From Stenoxybacter acetivorans DSM 19021 (GTDB lineage Bacteria > Pseudomonadota > Gammaproteobacteria > Burkholderiales > Neisseriaceae), in NCBI RefSeq assembly GCF_000745895.1, contig NZ_JQKE01000004.1, forward strand, positions 1 through 64,000: a stretch of 64,000 bases of DNA, read 5' to 3'. The notes under the pieces were generated by a model that worked only from the letters and a program-made list of their open reading frames with translations, was not told the origin of the DNA and searched no databases. Below are positions 12,998-62,401 of the stretch, piece by piece. The first letter of the stretch is position 1, and each line of letters begins with the position of its first letter. The position numbers and the translations under genes are program-made.

Positions 12998-13035
12998 AAT
13001 CAAGCCATTTTTGTGTAAACAAAAATGGCTTGATT
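12998..13035. terminator. Bidirectional terminator between membrane protein gene and phoU
   Basis: A perfect 17-bp stem (AATCAAGCCATTTTTGT against its complement at 13019-13035) with the loop GTAA lies between two convergent genes. A/T-rich flanks on both sides suit termination in both directions. Confidence 0.85.
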
Positions 13036-25161: not shown

Positions 25162-25198
25162 AAGCTGAATTCTGTATGATGCGGAATTCAGCTTTTTT
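25162..25198 (+). terminator. Rho-independent terminator after rpmA
   Basis: AAGCTGAATTC (25162-25172) and GAATTCAGCTT (25184-25194) form an 11-bp stem followed by a T-run to 25198. The remaining 25199-25549 gap holds one DUS near 25313 and nothing else I recognise. Confidence 0.85.
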
Positions 25199-26817: not shown

Positions 26818-26851
26818 AAAAAAGCACAAGTTTATCGGCTTGTGCTTTTTT
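26818..26851. terminator. Bidirectional terminator
   Basis: AAAAAAGCACAAG and CTTGTGCTTTTTT form a 13-bp stem with an 8-base loop between the convergent STAS-like gene and hemJ. A- and T-tracts flank it on both sides. Confidence 0.9.
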
Positions 26852-47537: not shown

Positions 47538-47652
47538 AACCATTGCGGATTGATGAATGAAATCACCATAAAATGCGTTCAGCAAAGCGAGGGCGTTAAT
47601 AATGAAGGGCGGATAATCGGCAATGCAGTCATCAGATGAACGAGAAAACACT

Positions 47653-49386
47653 ATGCAAAAATTATCACCTTTACCGCTTCCGCCGTTGGACGATACGTTT
47701 CCTCGGTTTTTACACTGGGCGCAGCCCTTTCTTAATGAACAGCAGCAAGCAGAAACCGCGGCAACCATTCAGCGCTTAAAACCCGATGCCGAACAATGGC
47801 AAGCACAGTTGGCAGAAAAACAGAAAAATCAACCAACAGGCTGGTTGTATGATGATTGGATTCACTCCTATCTCAGCACCCGCGAGCCGCTCACCTTGTC
47901 CGCCAATTTTGCTGTTGAAATTTTCCCCGAAGTTCAAAAAGATGTTTCGTTTTTAGAGCATTTTATTCATGCTTTGGTACACATCGCTTCTCTTTGGCAG
48001 CAGAAAAAATATCCGCCTGAATCAGATCTGCGCGGCAGTGCCATTGATATGAATCCTTTTGCCGTATTGGGCGGTTATTGCCGAATTCCCAAGCCGCGCG
48101 AAGACATGCTGTATTTTGCGAGAAACAGCAAACACATTGCTGTTTATCATCACGATCAATTGTATCGGCTTGAGGTTTTAGACAATGATTTTCAGGCAGC
48201 CCAATTGCCCGACATCATCGGTATGCTGACAGCAAAGGCGCATCAAAACAATGATATTAGGCTGTCTGCGGCGGGATTTATGCCTATTGATGATGCGGCG
48301 GCATGGCGGACAATGCTGAAAGAAAGCCACGCGGATTATTTTGAGACGATTGAATCATCATTGTTTACGATTACCTTGATCGATGAAGCGGCAAACACCG
48401 AAAATGAAGCCTTGCGGCAAGCCTTGTTTTTAAACGGAAGTCATGGCTGGCCGTTTAAATCCATGCACTTTGTGTTTAATACTTTTAATAACCGATTGTG
48501 GGCAAATTTTGAACACAGCTACCAAGATGCCGGATTGCTGACTGCGTTGTTACAGAAAGTGCAAATCTTTATGGCAAATAATGCAAACGTCATTGGCGGT
48601 AACATTATTCGGGCATTGCCGCAGCGCATCAGCGAAAACCTGAGTACAAAACAGCAAAAACAATTGGCGGTTTATCAGCAAAACTATCTTCAAAAAACAC
48701 AAAATACAGTGATTCAATCACTTAAATATGCCGTAAACCCGCAAGTGATTAAAACAGTGGGTGCAGATGCTTTATGCCAGCTGATTCATGTGTATGCCAT
48801 TCTTAAAGTAATGGGTGAACCAAGAAGCATTTATGAGGCCGTTGCCGTACCGCATTTTGCTTATGGCAGAACGGAATGTGTCAGGGCTTTTTCGGCGCAG
48901 ATGCAGGCATTGGCAGCGGCGATGCTTGGCGGGTGTACGGCATCAAAAGAGATTCTGAGTGCTTTATTGGCAGCAGCGGTACAGGAACACAAAAACCGCA
49001 TCAAGCAGTGTAAAAAAGGGCTGGGTGTGGACAGGCATCTGCTGGGATTGAAATTAGCAGCCGAACAAGATAAATCCGTATCAACTGCTGCCCAAGTGTT
49101 TTTTAACGGACAAGCCTATCAAAAAGAATCAGAAAATTTCTTTTCAACATCATCATTGGGTGCGGTTGGCTTAACAGGCGTGCTGATTTATAACCCCGTT
49201 GAAAGTGAAGGATTTGGTGTGGCGTATGGTTACCGAGAAAATGCCGTGATTTGGCATTTGTCTTATGCCAAGCATTTGTCTGCCCAAGCGCAAGCCATTG
49301 CCGAAGCCTTTCAGGAAGGTTTGGCGTGTGCGGAACGATTGGTTGGCATCTGCGGTGAATATCTATTGAATGAAAAAAACCAATAA
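47653..49386 (+). CDS. Choline/carnitine O-acyltransferase
   Basis: This 577-residue protein belongs to the choline/carnitine acyltransferase family, which moves acyl groups between CoA and carnitine or choline and is common in eukaryotes but rare in bacteria. It starts LPPLDDTFPRFLHWAQPFL, the family's substrate-tunnel segment. The catalytic histidine is in NRLWANFEHSYQDAG (near 295), in the usual EHSxxD setting. CoA-binding KKGLGVDRHLLGLKL, YGRTECVRAFSAQM and the late FFSTSSLG (STS-like motif) also match. I chose ATG 47653 (MQKLSPLPLPP) over an earlier start at 47623. It ends on the base where hemW starts and follows rdgB by about 115 bp. Confidence 0.85.
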   Translation: MQKLSPLPLPPLDDTFPRFLHWAQPFLNEQQQAETAATIQRLKPDAEQWQAQLAEKQKNQPTGWLYDDWIHSYLSTREPLTLSANFAVEIFPEVQKDVSFLEHFIHALVHIASLWQQKKYPPESDLRGSAIDMNPFAVLGGYCRIPKPREDMLYFARNSKHIAVYHHDQLYRLEVLDNDFQAAQLPDIIGMLTAKAHQNNDIRLSAAGFMPIDDAAAWRTMLKESHADYFETIESSLFTITLIDEAANTENEALRQALFLNGSHGWPFKSMHFVFNTFNNRLWANFEHSYQDAGLLTALLQKVQIFMANNANVIGGNIIRALPQRISENLSTKQQKQLAVYQQNYLQKTQNTVIQSLKYAVNPQVIKTVGADALCQLIHVYAILKVMGEPRSIYEAVAVPHFAYGRTECVRAFSAQMQALAAAMLGGCTASKEILSALLAAAVQEHKNRIKQCKKGLGVDRHLLGLKLAAEQDKSVSTAAQVFFNGQAYQKESENFFSTSSLGAVGLTGVLIYNPVESEGFGVAYGYRENAVIWHLSYAKHLSAQAQAIAEAFQEGLACAERLVGICGEYLLNEKNQ

Positions 49387-50618
49387 TGGCAACAGTTGTT
49401 AATGCGGCGCAAGAGCAGGCGGGGTATTTCTTTTCAGGCAGCCGTTCTGTTTCCCTGATCCAGTTGCCGCCTTTATCCTTGTATGTTCACATTCCGTGGT
49501 GTGTTCGGAAATGCCCGTATTGTGATTTCAATTCACACGCACAGCAAGGCAGTTTGTCAGAACAGGATTATATTCGGGCATTGCTGATGGATTTGGAACA
49601 AGAATTACCGCTGGTGTGGGGAAGGTCAATTGGCAGTATTTTTATCGGCGGCGGTACACCGGGATTGTTTTCAGCCGCAGCCATTGATGAATTATTAAGC
49701 GGTATCCGCGCCCGCTTGCGTGTGTTGCCTGAAGCCGAAATAACACTGGAAACCAACCCGGGAACATTTGAGCAAGTCCGTTTTCAAGGATTTCGCCAAG
49801 CAGGGATTAATCGCCTGTCGATTGGCGTGCAAAGTTTTAATGATGCGGCACTTGCGGCTCTGGGGCGTATTCACAACCACCGTGAAGCCTTGGTTGCCAT
49901 TGAAGCGGCATTGATGCTGTTTGATAAAGTGAATATTGATTTAATGTATGCTTTGCCGGCACAAAATGTTCAGGCAGCCTTAAATGACATTCAAACGGCA
50001 ATGAACACGGGTGTACGCCACATCAGCGCGTATCAGCTTACCTTAGAGCCGAATACCGCATTTGGGCATACGCCGCCGCCCGGCTTACCTGAAGAAGATG
50101 CGCTTGCTGATATTGAAGAAGCCGTGCATGGGCGGTTAAGCTCGGCAGGGTTTTATCGTTATGAAACCTCTGCTTTTGCCCGCGATGCCGCACAGCCATG
50201 CCGCCACAATCTGAATTACTGGCAATTTGGTGATTACCTCGGCATCGGTGCGGGCGCACATGGCAAGATTTCATCGGCAAACGGTATTCTGCGTACCGTA
50301 AAAAGCCGCCACCCCAAAGATTATTTGGCGGCAATGCTGTCATCTTGCCCGCAAGATGCCGTTGTGCGGAAAGAAATTCACCCGCACGATTTGCCGTTTG
50401 AATTTATGATGAATGCTTTGCGTTTAACCGAAGGCGTTGACACTGCTCTGTTCACTGAACGCACGGGTTTGAGTGTGGCAAATATTAGCCGCAATATTGA
50501 CACTGCCGTTAAGCGCGGTTTATTGGACAGCAACCCCGCCCGTCTGTACCCCACTGCTTTAGGGCAGCGTTTTTTGAATGATTTGCTGGCAATATTTTTG
50601 GCGGAAGGGAAAAATTGA
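49386..50618 (+). CDS. hemW: Radical SAM heme chaperone HemW
   Basis: HemW binds a [4Fe-4S] cluster and SAM and delivers heme to respiratory enzymes; it was long mislabelled as an oxygen-independent coproporphyrinogen oxidase. The 410-residue protein has LYVHIPWCVRKCPYCDFNSH, the radical-SAM CxxxCxxC at Cys39, Cys43 and Cys46, with the extra residues typical of HemW, then GGGTPGLF, ETNPGTF and RLSIGVQSF. It has an N-terminal extension of about 30 residues compared with E. coli HemW. The start overlaps the stop of the acyltransferase gene by one base. An exact DUS lies inside near 49970. Confidence 0.92.
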   Translation: MATVVNAAQEQAGYFFSGSRSVSLIQLPPLSLYVHIPWCVRKCPYCDFNSHAQQGSLSEQDYIRALLMDLEQELPLVWGRSIGSIFIGGGTPGLFSAAAIDELLSGIRARLRVLPEAEITLETNPGTFEQVRFQGFRQAGINRLSIGVQSFNDAALAALGRIHNHREALVAIEAALMLFDKVNIDLMYALPAQNVQAALNDIQTAMNTGVRHISAYQLTLEPNTAFGHTPPPGLPEEDALADIEEAVHGRLSSAGFYRYETSAFARDAAQPCRHNLNYWQFGDYLGIGAGAHGKISSANGILRTVKSRHPKDYLAAMLSSCPQDAVVRKEIHPHDLPFEFMMNALRLTEGVDTALFTERTGLSVANISRNIDTAVKRGLLDSNPARLYPTALGQRFLNDLLAIFLAEGKN

Positions 50619-50658
50619 ATACGATAATTTGATTTTAGAGGCAGTAATATTGTTCCTA

Positions 50659-50706
50659 AAAAAGCAACCGCACTTGTTTTTATCAAGACAAGTGCGGTTG
50701 CTTTTT
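50659..50706. terminator. Bidirectional terminator carrying Haemophilus-type uptake cores
   Basis: AAAAAGCAACCGCACTTG (50659-50676) and CAAGTGCGGTTGCTTTTT (50689-50706) form an 18-bp stem between convergent hemW and etfA. Both arms contain AAGTGCGGT or its complement, the nine-base core of the Haemophilus influenzae uptake signal sequence. Confidence 0.9.
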
Positions 50707-50748
50707 GATACAGTATTACGGTTTTTCGTTTTTTTAGATGCAAGAATA

Positions 50749-51681
50749 TCAGCCCAAAGCCGCTGTTAATTCCGGTACGGCGGTAAATAAATCCGCCACC
50801 AAACCATAATCTGCCACATTAAAAATCGGTGCGTCCGGGTCTTTATTGATGGCAACGATGACTTTGCTGTCTTGCATGCCCGCCAAGTGTTGTATTGCAC
50901 CGGAAATGCCGATGGCGAAATATAATTCGGGAGCAACCACTTTACCGGTTTGTCCGACTTGGTAATCGTTGGGTGCGTAGCCCGCGTCCACGGCGGCGCG
51001 AGATGCACCGATGGCGGCGTTCAATTTGTCTGCCAGCGGCATCAATATGCGGTTAAATTCTTCGGCACTGCCCAAGGCTCGCCCGCCGGAAACGATGATT
51101 TTGGCTTGTGTTAATTCAGGGCGGTCTGATTGAGTTAATTCGCGGCTGACAAATCGGCTCAAGTTTTGCACCGGCGCAGCGGCAATACTTTCCACAACGG
51201 CATTGCCGCCTGTTGCTGCCGCTGCGTCAAACGCAGTCGCGCGAATGGTTAATACCAATTGGTTGTCATCGCTTTGTACCGTGGCAAAGGCGTTGCCGGC
51301 GTAAATTGGGCGCACAAAAGTATGTGCGTCCACCACCTCGGTTAAATCAGACACTTGCGGACAATCAAGCGATGCGGCGATGCGCGGCATCAGGTTTTTG
51401 CCAAACGCGGTTGCCGTGGCGGCGATGTGGCTGTAATCTTTGGCGATACTTACAACCAAAGGTGCGATTTCTTCAGCCAGCCCGTTGGCGTAGTGTTCGG
51501 CATCAGCGAGCAATATTTTGGCAACACCGTTAATGTGTTTGGCTTCTTCTGCCACGCTTTGCGCATGGCTGCCGGCAACCAAAACATGTACTTCACCCAG
51601 TTTTTCAGCGGCGGTAACGGCGTGTAAAGTGGCGGGATTGAGTTTATTGTTGTCGTGTTCGGCAATAATTAATATGGTCAT
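50749..51681 (-). CDS. etfA: Electron transfer flavoprotein alpha subunit
   Basis: EtfA and EtfB form the FAD/AMP heterodimer that accepts electrons from acyl-CoA dehydrogenases and passes them to ETF-ubiquinone oxidoreductase. The protein has the N-terminal ETF domain ([28 protein letters not shown]) and the C-terminal FAD-binding domain with [75 protein letters not shown], the ETF alpha signature. ATG 51681 is preferred because AGGA lies seven bases upstream. It follows etfB by nine bases. Confidence 0.95.
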
Positions 51682-51690
51682 TATCATTCC

Positions 51691-52440
51691 TCAAATAACT
51701 TTGGCTTCGTTTTTTAATTTGCTGACAAGTTCGGCAACGCTTTCTACTTTTACGCCGGCAGTGCGTGTTTTGGGTTCAGCCACTTTGATTTGGCGCAAGC
51801 GCGGGGTAATGTCCACGCCCAATTCAGCAGCGGTTTTTTTCTCCAGTGGTTTTTTCTTTGCTTGCATGATGTTGGGTAATTTTACGTAGCGCGGCTCGTT
51901 TAAGCGCAAATCGGTGCTGATAACCGCCGGTAAAGTTAATGCCAGTGTTTCCAAACCGCCGTCAATTTCACGGGTGAGCAAAACTTCACCTTCGCCGATG
52001 ACCACTTTACTGGCAAATGTGCCTTGCGGTGCGTTCATCAGGGCTGCCAGCATTTGTGCGGTTTGATTGGCATCATCATCAATTGCTTGTTTACCCAAGA
52101 GCAGTAAGTCCGGTTTTTCGCTGTCGGCAATGGCTTTCAGCAGTTTTGCCACTGCTAAAGGTTCGAGTTTTTCATCGGTTTCAACGTGAACAGCACGGTC
52201 TGCACCCATTGCCAAAGCCGTGCGTAAGGTCTCTTCACATTGCTTCACACCCAAAGATACCACCACGATTTCGGTGATTTTTCCCGCTTCTTTCAAGCGC
52301 ACGGCTTCTTCTACCGCGATTTCGTCAAACGGATTCATTGACATCTTAACGTTGCCGATGTCCACGTCTGAACCGTCTGTTTTTACACGCACTTTGACGT
52401 TGTAATCAACCACCCGTTTTACTGCAACCAATGCTTTCAT
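51691..52440 (-). CDS. etfB: Electron transfer flavoprotein beta subunit
   Basis: EtfB is the AMP-binding partner of EtfA. The 249-residue sequence begins [20 protein letters not shown] and has [48 protein letters not shown] and [28 protein letters not shown], all typical. AAGGAG lies seven bases before the ATG. The pair is next to acyl-CoA dehydrogenase and CoA-transferase genes and would carry their electrons to the quinone pool. Confidence 0.95.
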
Positions 52441-52578
52441 GGATACTCCTTGTGTCTTGTCTGAATTCAGTTATCACACGATGTTTTCCGACTGTGGTTT
52501 ATTTTAACCAAATATGAAGGTCAATAGTGATGAAACTGTTTTGATTGGATTTTTTAATTTTTACTTTATTCAAAGCAA

Positions 52579-56380: not shown

Positions 56381-56410
56381 AGGCTGCCTGAAAAGGTTTT
56401 CAGGCAGCCT
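56381..56410 (+). terminator. DUS inverted pair after acyl-CoA dehydrogenase
   Basis: AGGCTGCCTGAAAA (56381-56394) and TTTTCAGGCAGCCT (56397-56410) form a 14-bp stem with a two-base loop, followed by TTTT. The rest of the gap to 56728 is A/T-rich and shows no gene; it should hold the promoter of the transporter gene. Confidence 0.85.
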
Positions 56411-62364: not shown

Positions 62365-62401
62365 AAATTAAGCTAATCTGTCGATTAGCTTAATTTTTTT
62401 T
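62365..62401 (+). terminator. Rho-independent terminator after tRNA-Lys
   Basis: AAATTAAGCTAATC and GATTAGCTTAATTT form a 14-bp stem with loop TGTC, followed by a T-run to 62401. Confidence 0.92.

Follow-up and report, generated by a model that had tools for sequence, protein, structure and literature searches.

Does a pair of Haemophilus-type uptake words in a hairpin between hemW and etfA mark imported DNA in a genome of Neisseriaceae? The pair lies in a 64-kb window (the whole stretch of DNA analysed), and the preliminary description proposed that the end of hemW or the adjacent gap came from a Pasteurellaceae donor. The features considered are listed in Table 1.

Table 1. Features of the hemW-etfA region and other terminator-like hairpins of the window
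Feature	Position	Strand	Remarks
Choline/carnitine acyltransferase gene	47623-49386		Between rdgB and hemW
hemW	49386-50618	+	Native to Neisseriaceae; radical SAM, HemN_C
Outer dyad around the hairpin	50644-50719	.	Weaker; arms 50644-50661 / 50702-50719, 78% complementary
Bidirectional intrinsic-terminator hairpin (predicted)	50659-50706	.	Perfect stem of 19 bp with an A/T tract on either side; hemW and etfA converge on it
AAGTGCGGT (Hin-USS core), left arm	50667-50675	-	
AAGTGCGGT (Hin-USS core), right arm	50690-50698	+	
etfA	50749-51687	-	Native Neisseriaceae; convergent with hemW
etfB	51691-52440	-	Upstream of etfA, same direction
Hairpin with T-tract	12998-13035		Non-DUS
Hairpin with T-tract	25162-25194		Non-DUS
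Hairpin with T-tract	26818-26851		Non-DUS
DUS-pair hairpin	56381-56410		One example
Hairpin with T-tract	62365-62396		Non-DUS

The 48-bp hairpin, AAAAAGCAACCGCACTTGTTTTTATCAAGACAAGTGCGGTTGCTTTTT, is an inverted repeat with 22-nt arms that are 95% complementary. As had been noticed earlier, each arm contains AAGTGCGGT, the core of the Hin-USS; these are the only two copies of the word in the window and thus its only pair. The terminator-like appearance of the hairpin was confirmed as well. The RNA fold of the hairpin with its near flanks has an energy of -44.3 kcal/mol (z -10.4; shuffled mean -14.8). The stem is followed by a T-tract on both strands, TTTTT on the plus strand and TTTTTT on the minus strand, and either strand reads GGTTGCTTTTT. 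The distances to the stop codons are 40 nt for hemW and 42 nt for etfA. Hence the locus has the features of an intrinsic terminator, that is, a stable GC-containing hairpin 3' of a gene and a T-tract 3' of the stem. The outer dyad has no further copy in the source genome. A multi-copy repeat or MITE was considered and rejected, as in the source genome the 130-bp gap between the genes matches only its own reverse complement; in relatives it has short partial matches only. No known RNA families were found in the region 49000-52500.

Judged by protein identity, both neighbours, including the last 70 residues of HemW, clearly belong to Neisseriaceae. HemW shares up to 69% identity with its Neisseriaceae homologues (62-69% in most genera, 57-59% and 48-50% in two outlying ones) and 48-54% with those of 121 Pasteurellaceae-like genomes. 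The mean identity of the C-terminal third is 63.9% for Neisseriaceae versus 43.3% for Pasteurellaceae, and that of the last 70 residues is 59.5% versus 38.0%, the means being taken over the best 29 or 30 loci per family. EtfA, compared within Neisseriaceae, reaches 83% identity. It is therefore barely credible that a Pasteurellaceae donor contributed the 3' end of hemW together with the gap: the USS pair itself and the known exchange between Haemophilus and Neisseria speak for such an event, but both the C-terminal segments and the whole HemW protein are far nearer to Neisseriaceae.

In many relatives rdgB adjoins hemW and etfA is located elsewhere; in the window the two former genes are split by the choline/carnitine acyltransferase gene. 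The hemW/etfA junction was not found among the relatives examined, and thus there is no ancestral gap for comparison. A parS-like sequence, GTTTCACGTGAAAC, is present at 25 of 29 Neisseriaceae etfA loci (L159-L187) and absent from the window and from 400 kb sampled from the source genome.

Pasteurellaceae DNA matches essentially only the hairpin within the gap (approximately positions 35-92 of 130). The few matches reaching outside it are short, or weak at 75-78% identity, and none of 140 Pasteurellaceae-like genomes has homology clearly extending beyond the hairpin. This group was built around the genome G316, found via its 19 USS pairs, and its family label is presumptive. The matches confined to the hairpin are uninformative about a donor, because any USS pair would yield them. 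Of the original proposal, the part that concerned hemW has to be abandoned.

We then turn to the uptake words. AAGTGCGGT is not over-represented in the source genome: there are 27 copies in 2.61 Mb versus 41 copies of the reversed control word, far below the density of about one per kb required of a functional Hin-USS and observed in USS-bearing Pasteurellaceae (close to one USS per kb, PMC1626085). The 3 kb around the hairpin contain the single AAGTGCGGT pair and no additional USS. On the other hand, the simDUS word described by Frye et al. (PMC3630211), AGGCTGCCTGAA, occurs 36 times in the window versus 0.01 expected, and in the 400-kb sample it outnumbers kingDUS 151 to 31. As AGGCTGCCTGAA dominates, the source genome is that of a simDUS-bearing member of Neisseriaceae. 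The genome-wide count had been suggested in the preliminary description, which named a background-level count and Neisseriaceae ancestry of the flank as observations that would speak against its proposal; essentially both were made.

Both arms match the extended Hin-USS at 20 of 23 informative positions. At the non-core positions the score is 11 of 14, and it is equalled by 15 of 60 flanks of ordinary non-DUS terminators of the source genome. Hence the extended match is no evidence for an uptake function. A working second uptake signal would explain the exact 9-bp core and the 20 matching positions in both arms. Nevertheless, we consider it very improbable, given that AAGTGCGGT lacks genome-wide enrichment, that the T-tract of a terminator may explain the extended match, and that a different uptake word, AGGCTGCCTGAA, is abundant.

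The statement that all other terminators carry AGGCTGCCTGAA turned out to be incorrect, since at least four hairpins of the window have T-tracts and no DUS, along with DUS-pair hairpins (Table 1). Stretches sampled from the source genome, 464 kb in total, contain 79 non-DUS and 24 DUS terminator-like stems by the criteria used. Some slightly truncated DUS stems (arm one or two bases short) were scored as non-DUS, so that 79:24 overstates the real imbalance. Non-DUS terminators are common both in the source genome and 3' of etfA in relatives, and their stems are varied.

Exact inverted USS pairs are in excess in Neisseriaceae. The pattern ACCGCACTT-N3-30-AAGTGCGGT was found 12 times in 9 of 83 Neisseriaceae genomes, two of the pairs being in the source genome, whereas the same search with the reversed control word produced no pairs in these 83 genomes. 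In a class-wide sample of 370 genomes the pairs occur only in the source genome and in one Pasteurellaceae-like genome (19 pairs). A first-order stem model derived from the 464 kb of the source genome predicts approximately 0.002 pairs per Mb, that is, approximately 0.005 per genome, versus two observed. For the whole family, the same model based on sampled DNA and an approximate total of 190 Mb gives about 0.4 pairs versus 12 observed. By this model, the focal pair is more than a chance pairing.

The second exact pair of the source genome (L016) forms a hairpin at positions 17307-17332 of contig C29, downstream of a gene for type IV pilin and adjoining a glutamine synthetase-like gene. Given this pair, with about 0.005 expected, and the excess in the family, pure chance is an uncomfortable explanation for the origin of the stem, though not for its function.

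The choice of the word was considered separately. Among perfect stems AACCGCxxTT, tallied by eye, xx = AC occurs 11 times, while all 15 remaining dinucleotides add up to 23 occurrences, eight of them CC and mostly from one apparently orthologous site. Two genomes, G066 and G070, have their own cause for AAGTGCGGT (the islands described below). Without them AC retains seven occurrences at about six sites versus about one site per other word. This is an approximately five-fold excess, in which kinship is handled only by collapsing obvious orthologues; it may reflect over-dispersed words, and thus is suggestive, not decisive.

Pairs in the opposite orientation, AAGTGCGGT..ACCGCACTT, were found in seven genomes. 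In four of them, all from the genus Neisseria (L258, L261, L262, L263), the pair immediately follows the 3' end of a gene for Cu,Zn superoxide dismutase, read as sodC. The sodC gene has long been described as a transfer from Haemophilus to Neisseria. These loci, which agree with the known Haemophilus-linked case, served as a positive control, and they show USS-pair terminators to exist in Neisseria. Two of them were scored against the extended USS and agree with it at 21-22 of 23 positions. The focal hairpin resembles them in having a USS pair at a terminator position in a DUS-bearing genome. However, the sodC pairs have the '+-' orientation and directly follow an accessory gene, whereas the focal pair is '-+' and lies between native core genes.

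Similarly, the terminators with paired Hin-USS that are known from Pasteurellaceae (Kingsford et al. 2007, PMC1852404) consist of an inverted AAGTGCGGT pair with a T-tract at gene ends. The difference is that here the host belongs to Neisseriaceae, USS are not enriched, the flanking genes are neisserial, and the source genome has two pairs compared with tens in Pasteurellaceae. In Neisseriaceae, DUS-pair terminators (Frye et al. 2013, PMC3630211) also use an inverted uptake word as the stem, but the word in the focal hairpin is of the Haemophilus type and not simDUS AGGCTGCCTGAA. Among the papers retrieved from an open-licence library, none was seen to describe the focal pair or Neisseria islands dense in USS.

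One possibility is that a short tract with a Pasteurellaceae USS-pair terminator entered the hemW/etfA gap via transformation, the genes remaining untouched. The imported hairpin would then remain a working terminator. This is consistent with the excess of exact pairs in Neisseriaceae, with their restricted distribution in the class-wide sample, and with the sodC pairs, which are such terminators beside a known transferred gene. Moreover, Pasteurellaceae '-+' terminators often have the form CAACCGCACTT..AAGTGCGGTTGTTTTT, which is near the stem of the focal hairpin. However, the 140 Pasteurellaceae-like genomes provide no clear donor homology past the hairpin, and the 3 kb around it contain the pair alone, whereas Pasteurellaceae with USS have about one per kb (PMC1626085). 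The focal orientation is also the rarer one in H. influenzae, with 25 versus 50 pairs (PMC1852404), and the sodC pairs differ from it. On balance, we regard such an import as rather unlikely. The more general suggestion that Neisseriaceae recurrently gain USS-pair terminators of Pasteurellaceae in the form of terminator-sized tracts that lack the neighbouring genes, the focal hairpin included, is likewise rather unlikely.

We believe it likely that the hairpin acts, as predicted from its structure, as an ordinary Rho-independent terminator for hemW and etfBA between native genes, and that its stem is of Neisseriaceae origin and not imported. Its role as a terminator, although predicted, is almost certain; the native origin of the stem, arising within Neisseriaceae, is probable. 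The native hemW and etfA genes were probably joined through a lineage-specific rearrangement. RNA transcribed from either strand would form the same stem with a U-tract after it, and transcription would stop. The AAGTGCGGT words would simply constitute the stem, most likely having no uptake role in a genome that has AGGCTGCCTGAA as its own uptake word. When a terminator contains an uptake word of foreign type, this is not proof that a neighbouring gene is foreign. At the same time, the apparent family-wide excess of Haemophilus-type stems could provide a way to test for exchange on the scale of terminators between two naturally competent families.

A situation more interesting than the hairpin itself was observed outside the window, in two genomes of the genus g11, which is taken to be Neisseria. 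AAGTGCGGT is strongly enriched in G066 (98 copies versus 16 of the control word) and G070 (77 versus 28), and these whole-genome counts are free of the bias that affects the selection of islands. The words cluster in islands (loci L295, L296, L310-L312). In G066 these are contigs C35 and C29 (40-64 kb) and a part of C31; in G070 they are located on C1 near 519-551 kb, 1160-1170 kb, 1317-1327 kb and 2228-2247 kb. Together, the islands contain 62 copies in about 97 kb (approximately 0.6 per kb) versus seven in about 300 kb from other parts of these two genomes, a contrast that is biased upward, as the regions were partly picked for known pairs. One-mismatch words are rare in the islands, and the DUS density and GC content are near the host values. 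No matches to the DUS-USS composite AAGTGCGGTTTCAGACGGC were found in viral contigs, and the other 80 Neisseriaceae genomes contain no copies. This composite, in which AAGTGCGGT is fused to DUS, is frequent in G066 (30 copies) and G070 (24 copies) and occurs once in G036. The islands look like DNA carrying uptake words of both families, and their genes, as read by eye, are largely LysR regulator- and oxidoreductase-like.
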